A stretch of DNA of 33,278 bases, taken from NCBI GenBank assembly GCA_009837205.1, contig VXTZ01000022.1, positions 134,560-167,837 of the forward strand, in the 5' to 3' direction. Numbering within the stretch: position 1 is the stretch's first letter; each line of letters opens with the position of its first letter. The stretch is from Candidatus Dadabacteria bacterium (GTDB taxonomy: Bacteria; Desulfobacterota_D; UBA1144; Nemesobacterales; Nemesobacteraceae). The notes below the pieces were generated by a model. It ran no database searches, was not told the origin of the DNA, and worked only from the letters and a program-made list of their open reading frames with translations. Below, piece by piece: positions 3,051 through 27,194 of the stretch. The position numbers and the translations under genes were made by a program.

Positions 3051-4457
3051 TTATCCTATTTCTCGTAACTGGATTGAATCTATGCCGGCAGTCGTGATAA
3101 CGTCGGATACAAGCACGACCTGATCCCCCAAATTTAGTACCCGTTTTCTCTTCAGAAGCTCGAATGCTTCTTGGATCCTTCCCTCGGGATCCTCGGATTC
3201 ATCCATGCGATGCGCGATTACGGCTCTGTTCAGAGACAGTTGCCGTTTTATTCTGCTATCGAAGGTTACCGCATGAATAGTTGTCTTGGCAGGCCTGCAA
3301 TTGGTTGTCAGCTGAGCCATTAGTCCTTTTTTCGTTATTACGATCAGGCATTTGGCGTCAATTGATTCAGCGAGTTCAACCGCTGAAGCTGCTATATGCT
3401 GCTTGAGATCCTGCTTAACAAGAAGCTTGCCCATTTGCAGACTTGTGAGACTTTCCGCCTTTAGGGCTATCTTGTCGAGATGCTCTATTGACCTTATGGG
3501 ATGTTTTCCGGTTGTTGTTTCACCCGAGAGCATAAGTGCGTCGATTTCCTCGTAGACCGCGTTTGAGACGTCCGTTACTTCCGCCCGGGTAGGAATCGGG
3601 TTATCGATCATTGATTCGAGAAGATGGGTGGCGACTATCACTCTTTTGCCTTTCTCTTGGCATTTGCCGACTATCACTCTCTGTACGTCCGGCAATTCCT
3701 CAATGCTCATCTCGATACCGAGATCTCCCCTAGCAACCATAACCGCGTCCGATTCCTCGACGATTTCCTCTACGTTTCGCACCCCTTCTTGGTCCTCGAT
3801 CTTAGAGATGACCTTAATTCCCTCTCCGTCGGCTCCCAGCAGTTCTCTGAGTTCCAGAACATCCTGTGCTTCCCTCACAAAGGAAAGGGCTATGTAATCG
3901 ACTTCGTTTCTGACTCCAAACTCTATATCCGCCTTGTCCTTGTCCGTTATTGAAGGAAGATTGACTTTTACCCCGGGCAGATTGACATGGCGTTTGCTCT
4001 TCATGGTTCCGCCGTCGATAACTCTGCATTTCATGGTTCCGTGGTCCTTCTCAAGCACTTCAAGGTTTATGAGACCGTTGTCCACGGTTATTTTCTCTCC
4101 TATCTGAACTTCGTTGATAATATCTTCGTAATTGATATGAATTGAAGACTCCTCAACGTCATCAGGTCTTACGGACACTGTAATTACATCTCCCTGGTTT
4201 ATATGCAGGTCGCTTTGCAGAACCCCGGTTCTGATCTCCGGTCCCTGAGTGTCAAGTATCAGGGCGATTGAGTCTCCAACTTCCCTGTTTATGGATTTCA
4301 CCGTCTTGATTACTTCAAGGTGGCTTTCGTGAGTGCCGTGCGACATATTGAGGCGCACGGCGTCCATACCCGCCTCGTACATTTTCATCAGCATTTCGTA
4401 CGAACTTGTGGAGGGGCCTACGGTGCAGATTATTTTCGTTTTTCTAAATGGTTTCAT
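3051..4457 (-). CDS. pyk: Pyruvate kinase
   Basis: This 468-residue enzyme converts phosphoenolpyruvate and ADP to pyruvate and ATP, the last step of glycolysis. The N-terminus MKPFRKTKIICTVGPS is the standard beginning of the barrel domain. It is followed by DAVRLNMSHG, LDTQGPEIRTG, the B domain, KIEDQEGVRNVEEI, the active-site MVARGDLGIEM, PTRAEVTDVSNAV and LMLSGETTTGKHP. The C-terminal allosteric domain (LIVITKKGLMA onward) is complete. An upstream in-frame GTG at 4508 would add 17 residues that do not match the family, so I chose the ATG at 4457; neither start has a strong Shine-Dalgarno sequence. The gene stands alone, divergent from the antiporter-atp cluster and convergent with the transporter. 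No missing catalytic residue is evident. Confidence 0.95.
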   Translation of the reverse strand: MKPFRKTKIICTVGPSTSSYEMLMKMYEAGMDAVRLNMSHGTHESHLEVIKTVKSINREVGDSIALILDTQGPEIRTGVLQSDLHINQGDVITVSVRPDDVEESSIHINYEDIINEVQIGEKITVDNGLINLEVLEKDHGTMKCRVIDGGTMKSKRHVNLPGVKVNLPSITDKDKADIEFGVRNEVDYIALSFVREAQDVLELRELLGADGEGIKVISKIEDQEGVRNVEEIVEESDAVMVARGDLGIEMSIEELPDVQRVIVGKCQEKGKRVIVATHLLESMIDNPIPTRAEVTDVSNAVYEEIDALMLSGETTTGKHPIRSIEHLDKIALKAESLTSLQMGKLLVKQDLKQHIAASAVELAESIDAKCLIVITKKGLMAQLTTNCRPAKTTIHAVTFDSRIKRQLSLNRAVIAHRMDESEDPEGRIQEAFELLKRKRVLNLGDQVVLVSDVITTAGIDSIQLREIG

Positions 4458-7612: not shown

Positions 7613-9130
7613 ATGCAGGAACTAAGAGCAGAGAGTATAGGCGAGATTCTGAGAAACAGGATAAAGGGCTATGAACGGAAAGTTGATACCGAAGAAGTCG
7701 GGACGGTTATTTCCGTCGGCGACGGTATCGCTAGGGTTTACGGTCTTGATCAGGCGGTAGCGGGAGAGCTCGTCGAGTTTGACGGCGGAATCACCGGACT
7801 TGTTCTTAACCTTGAAGAGGATAATGTCGGTGTCGCTCTTTTCGGAGAGGATTCCCACCTGAGCGAAGGAGGAATGGTAAAGCGAACGGGACGCATCGCC
7901 GAGGTGCCTGTCGGAGACGCTCTCGGCGGAAGGGTGGTCGATGCTCTCGGAAGACCGATTGACGGTCTCGGAGAAATAGCCGCCGCTGAAACAAGGCAGA
8001 TCGAGGTGAAGGCCCCCGGAGTTATTTACCGCCAGTCGGTAAACGAGCCCCTTCAGACGGGACTTAAGGCCGTTGATTCCATGATACCGATAGGAAGAGG
8101 CCAGAGAGAACTTATTCTGGGAGACCGTCAGGTCGGAAAGACCGCTATCGCGATCGATACGATAATAAACCAAAAAGAAGAGAATGTTCACTGCATATAC
8201 GTTGCCGTAGGACAGAAACAGTCAACCGTGGCTCAGGTAGTCGATAAGCTCAAGGAGCACGACGCCATGAAGTACACGACAATAGTTTCCGCCACGGCCA
8301 GCACTCCGGCTCCTTTTCAGTTCCTCGCTCCTTTTTCCGGCTGTGCCATGGGAGAATATTTCAGAGACACCGGCCGACACGCGCTCATAATATACGATGA
8401 TCTGACGAAACACGCGTGGTCCTACCGCCAGCTTTCGCTTCTTCTAAAGAGACCGCCGGGACGCGAGGCTTACCCCGGAGATGTTTTCTATCTTCACTCG
8501 AGGCTCCTTGAGCGCGCCGCCAAAATGAGAGACGAGGACGGAGGCGGCTCCCTTACGGCGCTTCCGATAATCGAAACCCAGGCGGGTGACGTGTCCGCCT
8601 ACATTCCCACGAACGTGATTTCCATCACCGACGGGCAGATATACCTTGAGAGCGATCTTTTCTACTCGGGTGTGCGACCCGCCATTAACGTCGGTCTTTC
8701 GGTTTCAAGGGTGGGAGGAAGCGCTCAGATAAAGGCGATGAAAAACATCGCCGGAACACTGAGGCTTGAGCTTGCCCAGTACAGGGAAGTCGAGGCGTTT
8801 GCGCAGTTCGCTTCCGACCTTGACAGGGTAACACAGAACCAGCTTGCCCGCGGAAGCAGGCTTGTCGAAGCCCTCAAACAGGATCAGTACGAACCACAGG
8901 CGGTTGAAAAGCAGATCCTGATCATATTTGCAGTTACAAACGGCTATGTTGACGACTATCCGGTATCCGCAGTGAGAAAATACGAGAGGGAGCTTTCTTC
9001 TTTCATGGAATCGAAGCATCCTCAGCATCTTGCGGAGATAAAAGAGAAGAAAGTTGTTTCGGACGAACTTGAGGAAAAGCTCGCAGTAGCGCTTGACGAG
9101 CTTAAAAACCAGTTGGGCGAGCTTGCCTGA
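7613..9130 (+). CDS. atpA: ATP synthase F1 subunit alpha
   Basis: This 505-residue subunit carries the non-catalytic nucleotide sites of F1. Its Walker A loop GDRQVGKT sits near residues 169-176, the usual place. Other standard motifs are the N-terminal [49 protein letters not shown] and the alpha-type [15 protein letters not shown]. The start ATG has AAGGAG at 7601-7606 with good spacing, 26 bases after atpH. Length and motifs are complete, with no sign of decay. Confidence 0.98.
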
Positions 9131-11927: not shown

Positions 11928-12139
11928 GTTTTTTCGCCTGAATCTGCCGTGGCGGAGTGTTCTTGTCCCGGCGGTCTGAACCCGTAGTCTGTCATGTTTT
12001 TGTTGTGAACTGTCCTGCTTTGAGATAACGAGGCGGGAAACCGGCCATCGTAAATACGGGAAGCGTTCTTTTGGAAAATCTAGATACTGACTGCGGATGC
12101 CCGTTCAGCTAAAGTGCAGTATCTGATCTCGAAGTTGTC
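11928..12139. other. Non-coding stretch between atpC and the PIN pair
   Basis: About 210 bases separate the end of the ATPase cluster from the promoter of the next genes. I see no open reading frame with family resemblance and no convincing terminator. A T-run at 11929-11934 follows atpC but has no stable hairpin directly before it. The one notable structure is the inverted repeat at 12082-12124, listed separately. Confidence 0.6.
12082..12124. repeat. 8-bp perfect inverted repeat
   Basis: AGATACTG at 12082-12089 is mirrored exactly by CAGTATCT at 12117-12124, with a 27-base loop. It ends 15 bases before the -35 hexamer of the PIN-pair promoter. There is no T-tract on either side, so it is not an intrinsic terminator. 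It could be a protein-binding site, a structured RNA end or chance. Confidence 0.45.
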
Positions 12140-12168
12140 TTGAAAACACCTGTTTCGTTCTTTATCAT
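12140..12168 (+). promoter_or_regulatory. Sigma70-type promoter of the PIN pair
   Basis: TTGAAA (12140-12145, 5 of 6) and TATCAT (12163-12168, 5 of 6) are separated by exactly 17 bases. Transcription would begin near 12175, about 30 bases before the ATG at 12206. This argues that the two-gene module has its own promoter and does not depend on read-through from the atp genes. Confidence 0.65.
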
Positions 12169-12205
12169 TTAGAAATATTAAGTTGTTTTTGGCGTGAGGT
12201 CTATT

Positions 12206-12508
12206 ATGGATGCTAAAGAAGCTGTGAGATTAGCGAAAAACTATGTAAAGGATATTTTCGTTGAAGAGCAGATTACGAATGTTGGACTTGAAGAGATCAA
12301 ATTTAATGACGACCAGGACTGCTGGGAAATCACCGTAGGATTTTCCAGACCGTGGGATTATCATGCTTGGAACCTGTTTGAAGATGTCCATTCTGCCTTT
12401 GAGAAGCAAAGACGGCCGAAGACGCGGTCCTTTAAGGTAGTTAACATAGACGCCAGTAACGCTAAAGTTTTGTCTGTCAGGAATCATGAACTGACCGGAA
12501 TGCAATGA
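12206..12508 (+). CDS. Small protein of unknown function, partner of PIN protein
   Basis: This 100-residue protein is not one whose function I recognise. It begins with an amphipathic helix (AKEAVRLAKNYVKDIF), followed by a likely beta strand, then DCWEITVGFSRPWDY, a second helix (WNLFEDVHSAFEKQ), and two strands (RSFKVVNIDASNAKVLSVRN). The helix-strand-strand plan recalls PepSY-like folds, which is an inference from pattern only. No ribbon-helix-helix, AbrB or helix-turn-helix motif of a usual antitoxin is visible. I prefer ATG 12206, preceded by TGAGG, over the in-frame GTG at 12194 that overlaps this ribosome-binding site. The stop overlaps the next start (ATGA), so the two proteins are probably made together in fixed ratio. 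It may bind or restrain the PIN RNase. Confidence 0.75.
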   Translation: MDAKEAVRLAKNYVKDIFVEEQITNVGLEEIKFNDDQDCWEITVGFSRPWDYHAWNLFEDVHSAFEKQRRPKTRSFKVVNIDASNAKVLSVRNHELTGMQ

Positions 12509-12975
12509 CTTCAGCACCGACTCGGCTTTTCCTTGACTCCAGCCTTCTAGTGTTACTTGTCGTCGGTATGGTTGATCCCGGACTGATTGCCAAACATAAG
12601 CGGACCAAGCAGTTTCCGGCTGAGGCATACGACCTACTAAACGAACACCTTTCGCACTTTGACTGCGTGTTAGTTACGCCGAACACCCTGACCGAAGCAT
12701 CCAACCTGCTCGGGCAACATGGGGAGCCCATGCGCTCGGATCTTTTCCAGATGCTTCACAACCTGATCAAAAGAACCGAAGAAACCGTAGTTGCAAGTGC
12801 GGATGCCTCGCAAAACAGCGCTTTTCCGCGCTTGGGCTTGACCGACGCGGTGCTTCTGGAAGTTGTCTCGGTCGAAACTCCCTTGCTCACGACGGACCTC
12901 AAATTACATGTTGCCGCCTTGGAGAGGAAAGGAGAGAAGTCTGCATTCAACTTTATGCATTTGTTTGATTACTGA
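12505..12975 (+). CDS. PIN-domain protein, putative ribonuclease (VapC-like)
   Basis: This 156-residue protein has the four acidic positions of PIN-fold metal-dependent RNases in the right order: D11 in LFLDSSLLVLL, E64 in TPNTLTEASNLL, D114 in LGLTDAVLLEV and D131 in PLLTTDLKL. It is longer than a classical VapC (about 130), with extra sequence around residues 20-40 between the first strand and the next helices. PIN toxins cut tRNA, rRNA or mRNA; the target here cannot be inferred. Its start overlaps the stop of the small upstream gene by four bases, as in toxin-antitoxin operons, but the upstream protein does not look like a DNA-binding antitoxin. It is convergent with mcrC, 33 bases away. 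The fold call is good; the toxin role is a hypothesis. Confidence 0.82.
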   Translation: MTSAPTRLFLDSSLLVLLVVGMVDPGLIAKHKRTKQFPAEAYDLLNEHLSHFDCVLVTPNTLTEASNLLGQHGEPMRSDLFQMLHNLIKRTEETVVASADASQNSAFPRLGLTDAVLLEVVSVETPLLTTDLKLHVAALERKGEKSAFNFMHLFDY

Positions 12976-13008: not shown

Positions 13009-14265
13009 TTACCAGAAAACAAACTCGTTTGGTCTGTTTCCGCTGATATCAATCGGCAGTATATGAAGAGTTGTCGGAACTTCTTCATGTTCCTTGAGAA
13101 GCGTTAGTTTAATTCGTTCCGTTAATTTTTCCTGCATAGGATAAAACAGGGCAAGATTCCTGACTCCGTACCTTGAAGCGTAGCTTCCTATCTGATACAT
13201 ATCTGACTGCGTTATCCCCAGTTTCTGTTCTTCGCTGTCCAGTACTTTCCATTTTGCATCGGCGATGGCAACCGGATTTCCAGATTTGTTCAGAAATGAG
13301 AAATCAGGCTTCATCATGAAAATCGACTTACCGGAATCTTCCCGTCTGGCGAAAGATCTTTGAGGTCCTTGTTCTCTTATGCTGATATCTTTTTCCCTTG
13401 TCTCTTTGCGAAGCTCCACTCCGACATAAGCCTCAAACAGCCTGTTCATATCGAACAGAAGTGCAAGACAGTCTTTCTCCCCCGTGGTAACGCCTGGATA
13501 GAATCCTCTGAGGAAAAATCCGCACTGCTCGAATACCTGTTTGTACCTGTCAGTTATGCGGTCAAAACTCAGAGAGTTAACCGCCGCCGTGACGTCCGTG
13601 GCGAAGTCGCTTATGGGTTCGAATCGCGCAAGAAGTTCCGAGACATGCCGTTGCGGTCGGCTTCCTTTAGCTTTTTTAAGCATTACCTCCAGTACATGTT
13701 TCAGAACTTGGTTGTAAACGTTATCCGCGCTTAATTCGTCGTACTGGCAGAAAAGCCGTTCCCCGTGGGCGAGATTCCGTTTGAGATGCTCCCCGATTTT
13801 AAGCTTCCCACGCAGCACGTTCAGATTTTCTTCGCGACGGATATATTTCTGGATCATTCCGCGCGTCAGCTGGGCATGAAGCTGGTCGCAGAAGTGCAGT
13901 ATGAATATGTCGAGGAGGAATCGCTTCTGGAGATTAATTCCCGCAGTACCCGCCCTAGTGAGTTTCAGGTACCGCGCTCTGTAGAGCATGCGAACAAGAA
14001 CTTCCCGGCTAGATTCGACATCATCCGCTTTTATGTCATGAATCTTGAGCAGAATCTCTATGGATAAATCCCCAAGAGAAATTACTCCACAGTATGATGC
14101 GAATTTTATTTCCCTGTCTCCCCACGACCAGGCTTTTGTCGGTAGTTTTCCTTCGAGTTTTCCGAGAAGCTCTGCGTGTTTTTCTCCAAGCTCGTTTTGT
14201 CTACCTGCGGGGGAGCGGACGATGGGGACCGATTTGTGCTCAATGACGGTAATTACTTCAGACAT
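13009..14265 (-). CDS. mcrC: McrC-like nuclease subunit of type IV restriction system
   Basis: This 418-residue protein is the McrC partner of a McrBC modification-dependent restriction complex. The N-terminal half (residues about 45-200) matches the McrC beta-rich and helical region: GVISLGDLSIEILLKI, VLVRMLYRARYLKL, and LRGKLKIGEHLKRNLAHGER. The C-terminal PD-(D/E)XK nuclease core is visible as KPDFSF (P320, D321) and IADAKWK (D336, K338), with YQIGSYA near 357-363. Its ATG overlaps the mcrB stop by one base (TAATG), so the two are translated together. In E. coli McrC binds the McrB hexamer, stimulates its GTPase and cuts methylcytosine-containing DNA. All catalytic residues appear present, so it is probably active. 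Confidence 0.9.
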   Translation of the reverse strand: MSEVITVIEHKSVPIVRSPAGRQNELGEKHAELLGKLEGKLPTKAWSWGDREIKFASYCGVISLGDLSIEILLKIHDIKADDVESSREVLVRMLYRARYLKLTRAGTAGINLQKRFLLDIFILHFCDQLHAQLTRGMIQKYIRREENLNVLRGKLKIGEHLKRNLAHGERLFCQYDELSADNVYNQVLKHVLEVMLKKAKGSRPQRHVSELLARFEPISDFATDVTAAVNSLSFDRITDRYKQVFEQCGFFLRGFYPGVTTGEKDCLALLFDMNRLFEAYVGVELRKETREKDISIREQGPQRSFARREDSGKSIFMMKPDFSFLNKSGNPVAIADAKWKVLDSEEQKLGITQSDMYQIGSYASRYGVRNLALFYPMQEKLTERIKLTLLKEHEEVPTTLHILPIDISGNRPNEFVFW

Positions 14266-16520
14266 TAGGTGTTGTTTTTTTCTTCGTATACTTTCCTGAT
14301 TGCGTCTGGAGTAATCTCGTCTTTAGTGGCTACCCGATATTCAGTTGAGTCTTCAAAATCATTCTCAAACCCGAAGACTTTTTTTCCTTCTACTATTTCG
14401 TGTTTTATAATCTGCGTTTCCTGCGGCTCGGGTTTTTCTCCACCTGTTTTTACATCTCTGAATACGAGTTGAATCTTGTGCCAGTCATCGTAAAAATACT
14501 CTTGGAGAAGAGGAATAATCCGGGAAAGCAGCACATCTTTAAGCTGGTCAAAATTACGTACCCTGATAAGGTAAGAATGACCGATGGTCATATCCCTGCT
14601 CAGGAGAAAGCGTATCCGGCTGTTTATCGCTTCAAGCAGCTTGCGAAGATCAATTTCCCCTCCCTTGTCGTCTTTTATCCTGCCATCAGATGAGCCTTCA
14701 ATCACGCTTGTATCCGGCATCATTTCCTGGAACTGAAATCTGCGCCGAAGCGCAGTGTCAAGAAGAGCTATCGAGCGGTCAGCCGTATTCATGGTGCCGT
14801 AAACATCCAGATTGGCCGGGACCCCGAATTTTTCCCCCGAATAAGGAAGAGTCAGAATCATACCTGACTGGGGCGAACCATCTTTTCCGTATGTCACTCT
14901 TTTGTCCGTTTCAAGCAGGGTGATGAGTTCTCCGAATATGCTGGCGATATTTCCCCTGTTTATCTCGTCAATAAAAATTGCGTATTGCTGTTTAGGGTCC
15001 ACTTTTGCTTTCTGACAGATTCGCTTGAATACGCCAGGAACGACCCCGTATTTCACGTTTCCGTCTTTATCTGACTTAGGTCTTATACCCTCGACGAAGT
15101 CTTCGTAGCTGTACGCCTGATGAAAGGTCACAAACTCGAATCGCTGATCATGCTTTTTGGGCTCATGATCCTGTTCACATTCGAATCGTTCGTCGGGCAA
15201 TTCCCGCTTTGGTCCGGCTTTCCATTTTTTGGCAAGTTCCACATGCCGTCTCCACTTGTGATCCTTATCGCATTCCTCTTCCCAGTCATTGACAAGATAC
15301 CATCTCTTGTTGGAATCCTGATCAAATACAAAAGGTGGACGGTCGTATTTGGTTGCCTGAATGACTTCTGAATTTTCAGCAGCATGTTCTCTGAGGTATG
15401 TAGATATTGAGTTGCGGATGTTTTTGTTGTTCGTCATAGGTTTTCTTATACGAATGTACTCATGTTCTGAGATTTCGGTGAGTGTTGCATTTGTTTCCAA
15501 GTACAGTACTCCGATGATTATGCTTAGCCACTGTGGGTTAGATGACTCAAATTCTTGACGAAGCCAATTTTCTCTAGTTTGGTCTTGCTTTCTGCTTAGA
15601 GTTTCTGCCGACGGAGTTTGTTTTTTGCCAGAATATTCTTCAGTTCGACTATTGAGCCAATGGGTTTTTCCGGTTCCGGGGGGGCCGTAAAGAATCAGAT
15701 TGAGGGGGTTTCCACCATTTGAATTTTCATTTTGCCATTCATTCAAAGGCGGGTTATAAAAATCAAGTTCGGAAGTTCTGTGCTCTTTTTCTTTCTCGCG
15801 TCGTATTTCAAGAAGAAGGCGGTCTATCTCCACCGGCGACAGTTTCCGGCCCGCTTCTCCCTTCTTAAACTTGCTGACAATTTTTTCTCGATGCTCTGCG
15901 CTGAATATGCGTTCAAAGCTATCAGGGAAGAGTAAAAACAGGATCATGTGACGTGACTGGCGGGTAGCACTTCCTGGAATCTGTTCAATCCACTCGGCAA
16001 AATCCCATCCATCGGAGAGAAGCAGTTCCTTGCGCCTCGTTACCGGAAACTTTTTCAATTCAATCATAAGCAGAATGAAAAATTCCCATTCCCACGCAAG
16101 TCTGGAAAAAATGCCTGCGCCAACATTACCTATTCCGGCCAGAACATCGTCCTCAAGCCATTTGGAGTTTTCGGGAAGTGGCTTGCTCGATCTCTCCCAG
16201 ATAGTCTTGATGCTTTCGCGTTTTGTTTGGATTTTGTACTTGTCGTGGCACAAAGACATCAGCCACGATATTTCCACAGCCAGTTGTTTGATTTCAGGTG
16301 GTCTTGCTTGAAGGAGATTTCCCAGCTGTTCGGTGAACTTGTCTTCGTTCTTATCGAGTTGCTTTATGAGATGTTGGTTGAGTTCTTCAAAATAACCAAT
16401 CTTCCATATCTCTGTATCTTCAAATATCCCATTGTCTGATATCAGGGATGTGTGTTTCCAGTGCTCGGCAGCCTCTAATATGGGCCCGGCGACATTGTTC
16501 TTGCCTACATAACGGCTCAT
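14265..16520 (-). CDS. mcrB: McrB-like AAA+ motor subunit with unusual architecture
   Basis: This 751-residue protein has an McrB-type AAA+ core: Walker A GPPGTGKT at 279-286, Walker B with IDEINRGN at about 517-524, the McrB signature MNTADRS at 577-583, and RRRF at 592-595. McrB proteins use GTP to translocate DNA toward the McrC nuclease. Two things differ from E. coli McrB. First, residues 1-260 form a mostly helical region that I cannot assign to a known methyl-reader domain; it includes a PDSFERIFSAEHREKIV motif. Second, Walker A and Walker B are about 230 residues apart, against about 75 in E. coli. The extra part (about 291-460) holds a segment like a winged helix (LSIIIGVLYLETNATLTEIS) and a very charged stretch. 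The specificity for modified DNA is unknown. There is no clear ribosome-binding site before the ATG. Confidence 0.88.
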   Translation of the reverse strand: MSRYVGKNNVAGPILEAAEHWKHTSLISDNGIFEDTEIWKIGYFEELNQHLIKQLDKNEDKFTEQLGNLLQARPPEIKQLAVEISWLMSLCHDKYKIQTKRESIKTIWERSSKPLPENSKWLEDDVLAGIGNVGAGIFSRLAWEWEFFILLMIELKKFPVTRRKELLLSDGWDFAEWIEQIPGSATRQSRHMILFLLFPDSFERIFSAEHREKIVSKFKKGEAGRKLSPVEIDRLLLEIRREKEKEHRTSELDFYNPPLNEWQNENSNGGNPLNLILYGPPGTGKTHWLNSRTEEYSGKKQTPSAETLSRKQDQTRENWLRQEFESSNPQWLSIIIGVLYLETNATLTEISEHEYIRIRKPMTNNKNIRNSISTYLREHAAENSEVIQATKYDRPPFVFDQDSNKRWYLVNDWEEECDKDHKWRRHVELAKKWKAGPKRELPDERFECEQDHEPKKHDQRFEFVTFHQAYSYEDFVEGIRPKSDKDGNVKYGVVPGVFKRICQKAKVDPKQQYAIFIDEINRGNIASIFGELITLLETDKRVTYGKDGSPQSGMILTLPYSGEKFGVPANLDVYGTMNTADRSIALLDTALRRRFQFQEMMPDTSVIEGSSDGRIKDDKGGEIDLRKLLEAINSRIRFLLSRDMTIGHSYLIRVRNFDQLKDVLLSRIIPLLQEYFYDDWHKIQLVFRDVKTGGEKPEPQETQIIKHEIVEGKKVFGFENDFEDSTEYRVATKDEITPDAIRKVYEEKNNT

Positions 16521-26126: not shown

Positions 26127-27194
26127 CTAATCATCAAACTTAAGAAGGGTTCCTTTCCTTTTTAGCTGGGTTTTTTCCGAAAGAGCATGAGAGACGATGG
26201 GAAGAGCTATGGTGGCGTCGCAGTAGCACTGAACCAAGCTGCCTTCGGGATTTTCCTTTCCCCAGGAAACCGCCTCTTCGAACGTGCACCCCGAAAGTCC
26301 CCCCCATTGGGGAGAATCGGTCGTGATCTGGATTGCGTATCTATGAGGATAGTAGGTTTCCTGCTCCCCGGTTCCCTTGCGGTTAAGCCCAAGCGCTCTT
26401 CCTGGAATCTTCCTGTCTTCGTAAAGAAGGTCGCCCGTGACGGCAAAGAGCTGAATAAAGTCTTTCGGAACCCCGCCACCTATGTAAACCACTCCCGTGT
26501 CAACCACGCTCTCGCCCATTCCCATAAACTCTACGTAGTCCTGTATGGCGTCGATCGTGAGATGATGTCCCTTGCTTTCGGCTATGAGCGCCGCGTCTCC
26601 GTAAGGGCTGTCCGCTATGGCGGGGCAGAAGACCGGAACTTCGTTTCTGGCGGCCGTGGCTACGATGCAGTTTATGTTTTTCTTGTCGAGCCACTGTCCG
26701 CATCTTTTTAGGAATTCTCTTGAGGAATAGCTTCGGGATTTGTCAAGAGTCATTATGAATTCGGCTAAAAGTTCGGTCATCTCAAGGTAGTCGGGCTCGG
26801 TTCCGTAAACGTCGTAGTAGCGGTTTATCCCCTCGGAGAAAAGCTTTGAGTCGTCTTCGTTAGGAGTTCCCTGCCAGTACGAAAAACCCATCGCTTCCAC
26901 TATGTCCTCGGAGATATTCGCGCCCGTGGGTATCAGAACGTCAATATACTTGTTTTCGATTAGCCAGTTTATTACTTTCCACTGTCCGGTTGTTGAAAGG
27001 GAGCCCGCGTATCCGAAAAAGATGGTGAGATTCTCAGCTTCCACCATCTTGCAGAGAACGTCCACTACCCTGCCCAGATTTCTACCCTGAAATCCCGTCT
27101 GCGCCATCTCCTCGAGCAGTCTTGAGATCGGCTTCTCGGGAGAAACCTCTATCGCTTTTACTTTTTCCCCAAGATAGCCTGATTCTTCCTTCAC
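26127..27194 (-). CDS. Deoxyhypusine-synthase-like protein
   Basis: This 355-residue protein is a bacterial member of the deoxyhypusine synthase family, NAD-dependent enzymes that transfer an aminobutyl group from spermidine. The catalytic lysine of the eukaryotic enzyme, which forms the enzyme-imine intermediate, is kept as K313 in FEEAVSWGKEN. FFGYAGSLSTTGQW, IPTGANISED, CPAIADSPYGDAAL and VYIGGGVPKDFI also fit the NAD and spermidine sites. Bacteria lack eIF5A, so the product is not hypusine; some bacterial homologues have been reported to make homospermidine, so a polyamine role is the best guess. The start is GTG at 27194 with AAGGAGA nearby. It follows leuS by 16 bases and is probably cotranscribed. 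Confidence 0.88.
   Translation of the reverse strand: MKEESGYLGEKVKAIEVSPEKPISRLLEEMAQTGFQGRNLGRVVDVLCKMVEAENLTIFFGYAGSLSTTGQWKVINWLIENKYIDVLIPTGANISEDIVEAMGFSYWQGTPNEDDSKLFSEGINRYYDVYGTEPDYLEMTELLAEFIMTLDKSRSYSSREFLKRCGQWLDKKNINCIVATAARNEVPVFCPAIADSPYGDAALIAESKGHHLTIDAIQDYVEFMGMGESVVDTGVVYIGGGVPKDFIQLFAVTGDLLYEDRKIPGRALGLNRKGTGEQETYYPHRYAIQITTDSPQWGGLSGCTFEEAVSWGKENPEGSLVQCYCDATIALPIVSHALSEKTQLKRKGTLLKFDD

Follow-up and report, generated by a model that had tools for sequence, protein, structure and literature searches.

Background

VapBC toxin-antitoxin modules consist of two overlapping genes, the first encoding a small protein and the second a PIN-domain protein with four acidic residues, and they are mobile and patchily distributed. 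The pair of genes described here shares these traits, and its PIN fold matches VapC structures. Unlike VapC, which has about 130 residues, the PIN proteins of this pair have 150-170, a difference already noticed when the locus was read from sequence alone (hereafter the sequence-only reading). The partner also differs from VapB in lacking an RHH, AbrB/SpoVT, HTH, Phd or MerR domain. In the accessible part of a 2009 census, the antitoxins associated with PIN proteins belong to predicted DNA-binding families (PMC2701414).

In its modelled layout of one helix and four strands the partner resembles instead the PepSY (PF03413) propeptides of M4/M36 metalloproteases, with which it also shares a hairpin of the form D-x-x-T-G-E-V. 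However, it misses the gathering score of that family, it is encoded beside a nuclease and no protease, and neither a signal peptide nor a membrane segment is evident in it. A further point of comparison is provided by the Hma systems, which are centred on DUF499 and comprise HmaA, HmaB and HmaC. The pair can lie inside or beside operons of this kind without belonging to their core genes, and the majority of its copies have no Hma. Hma-type systems are classed as “BREX-related” in a survey of BREX, the accessible part of which describes PIN RNases as less common back-up effectors and does not mention the partner protein (PMC12839542). No description of the pair, or of a PIN domain joined with a PepSY-like partner, was found in the open-access literature searched.

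The gene pair and its PIN protein

The pair lies on the forward strand of the window, by which we mean the whole 33,278-nucleotide stretch of DNA that was analysed, from a genome of 1.69 Mb in 35 contigs. The upstream gene (12206-12508, +) encodes the partner, a 100-residue alpha-beta protein and candidate antitoxin or inhibitor. The downstream gene (12505-12975, +) encodes a PIN-domain protein of 156 residues, a putative RNase and candidate toxin. The best start of the partner gene was the ATG at 12206, with a ribosome-binding site (GAGG) at 12196-12199, though a GTG at 12194 was also open. Both reading frames and their ATGA start/stop overlap (12505-12508, +), a sign of translational coupling, were present as the sequence-only reading had described them. 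The promoter that it had assigned to the pair fared less well. A sigma-70-like candidate, TTGAAA-17-TATCAT (12140-12168, +), does exist and matches at 10 of 12 positions, but two sites of this grade were found against a mean of 1.0 ± 1.0 in shuffled sequence. Since such sites are no commoner than chance, the candidate is no evidence on its own.

Neither protein of the window had a match in Pfam or NCBIfam, or a convincing one in PADLOC, and the pair is therefore overlooked there by current annotation. Searching the PDB by sequence gave nothing convincing, and PHROGs gave a single weak match, to a family of unknown function. A match of the partner to AbiEi (E 0.036) was judged to be noise.

The four acidic residues singled out from the window alone (D11, E64, D114 and D131) were all present and proved invariant across 49 aligned PIN homologues, as did R33, E93 and N149. 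The structural model of the PIN protein (pLDDT 95) matched VapC-type PIN structures from Pyrobaculum, Archaeoglobus, Shigella and Mycobacterium, including 1v8o, 2fe1 and VapBC complexes, with TM values of 0.5-0.6. At the sequence level PF01850 had no match in the window PIN and matched seven of the 49 relatives weakly. In Cyanobacteria the gene was under purifying selection, with a median dN/dS of 0.17 over 92 non-independent pairs. Judging from its conserved residues and predicted fold, the protein is probably a metal-dependent endoribonuclease.

An action on DNA was also considered, with the PIN protein as a flap or structure-specific nuclease accessory to restriction systems and the small protein as its regulator. 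PIN and FEN-type nucleases have a common fold, and an association of the pair with methylase and helicase operons (see below) points the same way. Yet the nearest structures are VapC-type PIN proteins, and the protein is a small single-domain PIN without the additions of FEN nucleases. We consider an action on DNA very improbable.

Conservation and fold of the partner

Five residues of the partner (E29, E30, W40, T43 and R74) were invariant in 49 homologues, and purifying selection was evident here too, with a median dN/dS of 0.25 in Cyanobacteria (92 non-independent pairs). The mean pLDDT of the structural model was 84; most of the core exceeded 94, and a loop around residues 50-70 was poorly predicted. 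Its layout was helix-strand-strand-(helix)-strand-strand, that is, one helix and four strands. No DNA-binding family or fold (RHH, AbrB, HTH, Phd or MerR) was detected in the partner by family searches, in the model or by fold search, which bears out its earlier description as an alpha/beta protein that ends in strands and lacks a known DNA-binding fold.

A Foldseek search with the model returned nothing at E below 0.02, let alone below 0.001. The most credible match was 4k90_B (probability 1.0, E 0.027, TM 0.52), listed as a 207-residue chain of a fungal extracellular metalloproteinase; we take this chain to be the inhibitory propeptide of that enzyme. Designed cystatin folds were also among the matches. 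Oxidoreductase folds (TM 0.29) were judged to be noise. The PepSY family PF03413 touched 12 of the 49 partners, in every case below the curated cut-off (best E 0.032). When the partners were compared with a PepSY profile made from domains collected from Cyanobacteria, only the last hairpin, D-x-x-T-G-E-V, aligned, with a score of 18 and a probability of just 6%. This score exceeded those of all 120 column-shuffled controls (maximum 16.7). Because the profile match is weak and covers one hairpin, we term the partner “PepSY/cystatin-like in layout” and do not call it a PepSY protein. The most credible reading of the model is that its fold would be closest to a PepSY/cystatin-type inhibitory propeptide, a likeness that does not establish common descent with PepSY.

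Distribution, pairing and decay

The same pair was found in Cyanobacteria, Chloroflexota, Actinomycetota, Gemmatimonadota, Acidobacteriota and Pseudomonadota. The pair is not a product of chance, as it turns up in dozens of genomes from several phyla, and similar pairs do occur in other bacteria, as the sequence-only reading had thought they might. Its nearest plasmid relatives, in Leptolyngbya, Allocoleopsis and Nostoc, have the same overlap and are annotated as “hypothetical protein” and “PIN domain-containing protein”. A query with the partner alone led to these same places. Fifty-eight loci were recovered with one genome per species. These were mainly cyanobacterial, the remainder coming from MAGs of Acidimicrobiia, Thermoanaerobaculia, Chloroflexota, Gemmatimonadota and Alphaproteobacteria. 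No relative was present among 70 pattern hits in viral contigs, and none in phage records. A single Okeania genome carried two diverged copies of the pair about 3 kb apart (L017:4215-5011 and 7666-8450).

Searches and genome surveys together yielded 73 distinct intact PIN proteins after removal of duplicate sequences. A partner homologue lay directly upstream of each, intact in 70 cases and damaged in three (L030, L048 and L059, all MAG contigs), where it was split by a stop or a frameshift. The adjacency seen in the window is thus conserved and close to obligate. Two of the outcomes that the sequence-only reading had named as refuting it, scarce co-occurrence of the two proteins and variation of the catalytic residues among homologues, did not arise. 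The partner came first and the PIN second, the antitoxin-first order, and the overlap measured 4 bases (ATGA) in 43 of 60 pairs and 1 base in six more. Among the PINs of Chloroflexota and Acidimicrobiia, a partner match was found directly 5′ in 14 out of 14, split into two pieces in L150. Natural fusions of partner and PIN, which would be proof that the two interact, were absent from the retrieved loci.

The PIN was rare in the groups surveyed (1-4% of genomes): it was detected in 14 of 339 genomes of Cyanobacteria, 12 of 301 of Chloroflexota and 2 of 198 of Acidimicrobiia. In the cyanobacterial survey each intact PIN was accompanied by its partner, and three partners stood without a PIN (G215:C34, G305 and G122); there were no intact orphan PINs. 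In one of these three (L121), what comes after the partner, as read from translation, is a transposase-like sequence and the Hma methylase. Sixteen loci had a broken or missing PIN, and in nine of them the partner was still intact. An intact PIN with a damaged partner was found three times and an intact PIN alone never. This 9-to-3 asymmetry runs in the direction expected for a toxin-antitoxin module, but the numbers are small and most loci were retrieved by searching for the PIN.

In the PIN tree a cyanobacterial clade was separated from a mixed clade of six phyla. The window PIN paired, with modest support, with an alphaproteobacterial PIN in the mixed clade. Such crossing of phyla is consistent with horizontal spread of the pair, which was found on both chromosomes and plasmids and had a patchy distribution.

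McrBC and the insertion site within the genus

Genes of the F-type ATP synthase lie 5′ of the pair in the window. On its 3′ side, on the opposite strand, are McrC (13009-14265, −) and the GTPase McrB (14265-16520, −), followed by a B12-dependent ribonucleotide reductase (RNR) gene. This McrBC type IV restriction system lies outside the two-gene module but shares with it one insert between atpC and the RNR gene. Otherwise, the scanned part of the window held genes of ordinary metabolism and transport, so that, apart from McrBC, this is not a large defence island. The first approximately 250 residues of McrB matched no Pfam family and its AAA part began at about residue 270; the unmatched portion is presumably where a target-recognition domain should be. 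Elsewhere in the window, a protein of the deoxyhypusine synthase family (26127-27194, −) was encoded in a genome that looks bacterial.

The site was compared between the genome of the window and 13 others of the same genus. Nine genomes had the RNR gene immediately after atpC. Five, with that of the window among them, had the McrBC insert, and the pair was intact in the window's genome only (1 of 14). In G013 (L090) a deletion from about 12513 to 12946 left the end of the partner gene abutting that of the PIN gene. In G001 (L093) about 706 bases were lost between two copies of the 10-bp direct repeat TGCGGATGCC. The copy at 12092-12101 (+) marks the left edge of this deletion and the copy at 12798-12807 (+), within the PIN gene, marks the right edge. 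This deletion took away the promoter candidate and the partner, along with about two thirds of the PIN. These are separate events in sister species, and both destroyed the PIN. McrBC was retained where the pair was lost or absent (G013, G001, G009 and G010). The sequence-only reading had drawn attention to McrBC, and it is indeed next door in the window, on the opposite strand (13009-16520). It is not a conserved neighbour, however, as the adjacency was not seen outside the genus of the window, and linkage to McrBC as a general rule was rejected.

Genomic surroundings and the Hma association

Most copies of the pair were solo cassettes amid unrelated genes. The neighbours varied and included gatB and purH (in some Nostoc), Mg-chelatase, methionine synthase-like and recN/pyrG-like genes, and others, some of these names being read from sequence. 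Neighbourhoods this diverse have the look of a portable cassette. The pair was fixed in position in some Nostoc, where five loci had it between gatB and purH and about five more had it beside one of these genes; this could be a case of domestication.

Such a stable chromosomal place, together with purifying selection on both genes, would suit a housekeeping enzyme of RNA processing or decay that has a dedicated chaperone or adaptor and is no toxin. The low prevalence in all three surveyed groups, and the single intact copy among 14 genomes of the window's genus, are hard to reconcile with housekeeping, as are the phylum-crossing PIN tree, the frequent decay and the plasmid copies. We therefore regard a housekeeping role as improbable.

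In 17 of 64 loci, genes of Hma systems (DUF499/DUF1156, “BREX-related”; HmaA/B/C in PADLOC) were found within 8 kb of the pair. The frequent order at these loci, on one strand, was ATPase, DUF7680, partner, PIN, methylase and helicase. Mapped on the PIN tree, the Hma association changed state at least five times on well-supported branches, and the Gemmatimonadota locus L012 provided an independent instance. By this tree, the association appears to have arisen several times independently. Given that DUF499 was present in 55 of the 339 cyanobacterial genomes, chance placement within 8 kb of Hma would be rare, although defence genes cluster anyway. In this evenly drawn sample the sole partner adjoining DUF499 had lost its PIN. 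The window itself contains no Hma genes (helicase, DUF1156 methylase and DUF499 ATPase are all lacking), the neighbours being ATP synthase, McrBC, RNR and metabolic genes.

Several other genes were observed at these loci. In a Nostoc copy, the Hma operon that houses the PIN pair also carried, between methylase and helicase, a second toxin-antitoxin-like unit consisting of a 115-residue protein and ParE (PF05016) (L029:11619-12244). In many Hma loci of Cyanobacteria, the DUF499 ATPase had a DUF7680 gene (142 residues) immediately behind it or close by (e.g. L002:3155-3583 and L003:3052-3480); DUF7680 is not mentioned in the accessible part of the survey of BREX-related systems (PMC12839542). 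A protein of 127-132 residues without a Pfam, PADLOC or PHROG match was encoded beside the pair in L036 (7250-7648) and in seven other loci, mostly of Hma type. An Hma-methylase-like fragment was present just 5′ of the partner gene in L004 and L005 (both 3436-3612) and in L042 (7496-7672), as though insertion of the pair had taken place close to a methylase gene's 5′ end.

The main rival to a toxin-antitoxin module is a sensor/effector unit in the service of Hma or McrBC. The pair would then be a two-subunit defence RNase, whose small protein acts as sensor or targeting subunit and, beyond inhibiting the PIN, activates or directs it. The PIN would be an effector that fires when a neighbouring restriction-like system (Hma, McrBC) is blocked or senses phage. 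The repeated gain or loss of Hma neighbours speaks for this, as does the usual position of the pair between ATPase and methylase on their strand. So do the insert shared with McrBC in the window and the mention of PIN RNases among the rare back-up effectors of BREX-type systems in the accessible part of the survey (PMC12839542). Against it stand the majority of copies, which are solo among housekeeping genes, the loss of the PIN from the only DUF499-adjacent partner in 339 cyanobacteria, the restriction of McrBC adjacency to one genus and the lack of a PADLOC model matching the pair. On balance we hold such a unit to be unlikely, though less so than the housekeeping and DNA-nuclease explanations. 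It also overlaps with the toxin-antitoxin reading, since the role of back-up effector is open to a toxin-antitoxin unit too. The sequence-only reading had left the choice between a toxin-antitoxin-like and a defence module. The distribution and decay of the pair are toxin-antitoxin-like, whereas the defence link is not to McrBC but to Hma, and in a minority of loci only.

Proposed mechanism and significance

We suggest, with a probability of roughly 0.6, that the two genes form a type II-like toxin-antitoxin module whose antitoxin is PepSY-like and does not bind DNA; from the genes and their arrangement we infer both the toxicity of the PIN and its inhibition by the partner. This is the simplest reading of the strict pairing, the gene order, the coupling, the conservation of catalytic residues, the patchy spread and the pattern of loss. 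In common with type II modules, the genes are small, adjacent, co-directional and tightly coupled, they are kept as a pair, and they show horizontal mobility and patchy presence on plasmids and in several phyla.

In the toxin-antitoxin module that we propose, the downstream PIN would be a metal-dependent endoribonuclease toxin, and the translationally coupled protein of 100 residues encoded upstream would bind the PIN and keep it inactive. A PepSY/cystatin-like fold would replace the usual DNA-binding domain of the antitoxin, which for this reason probably does not autoregulate at its own promoter. Dosage may instead be set by translational coupling and protein stability. The module moves on its own between chromosomes and plasmids, and at times it lies within restriction-like anti-phage operons (Hma/BREX-related), in which it may be an addiction element or back-up abortive effector.

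A more far-reaching proposal is a new toxin-antitoxin class. In it, the PepSY/cystatin-type inhibitor fold known from the propeptides of proteases would have become an inhibitor of a PIN RNase in the cytoplasm and would work without autoregulation of the promoter. Hma-type anti-phage operons would have taken up this module repeatedly, as a suicidal back-up effector that acts once the main system has been overcome. Taken in its entirety, this proposal is doubtful.

The toxin-antitoxin class of PIN toxins is very large, and the partners of these toxins have been regarded almost exclusively as DNA-binding autorepressors. If the toxin-antitoxin reading is true, a widespread PIN toxin with a partner of inhibitor fold that does not bind DNA would widen what an antitoxin can be, and would leave the regulation of such a pair to be explained, in a module that is small and easily tested. 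Its repeated lodging in Hma operons would offer a direct test of RNases as fail-safe effectors of restriction-like immunity.
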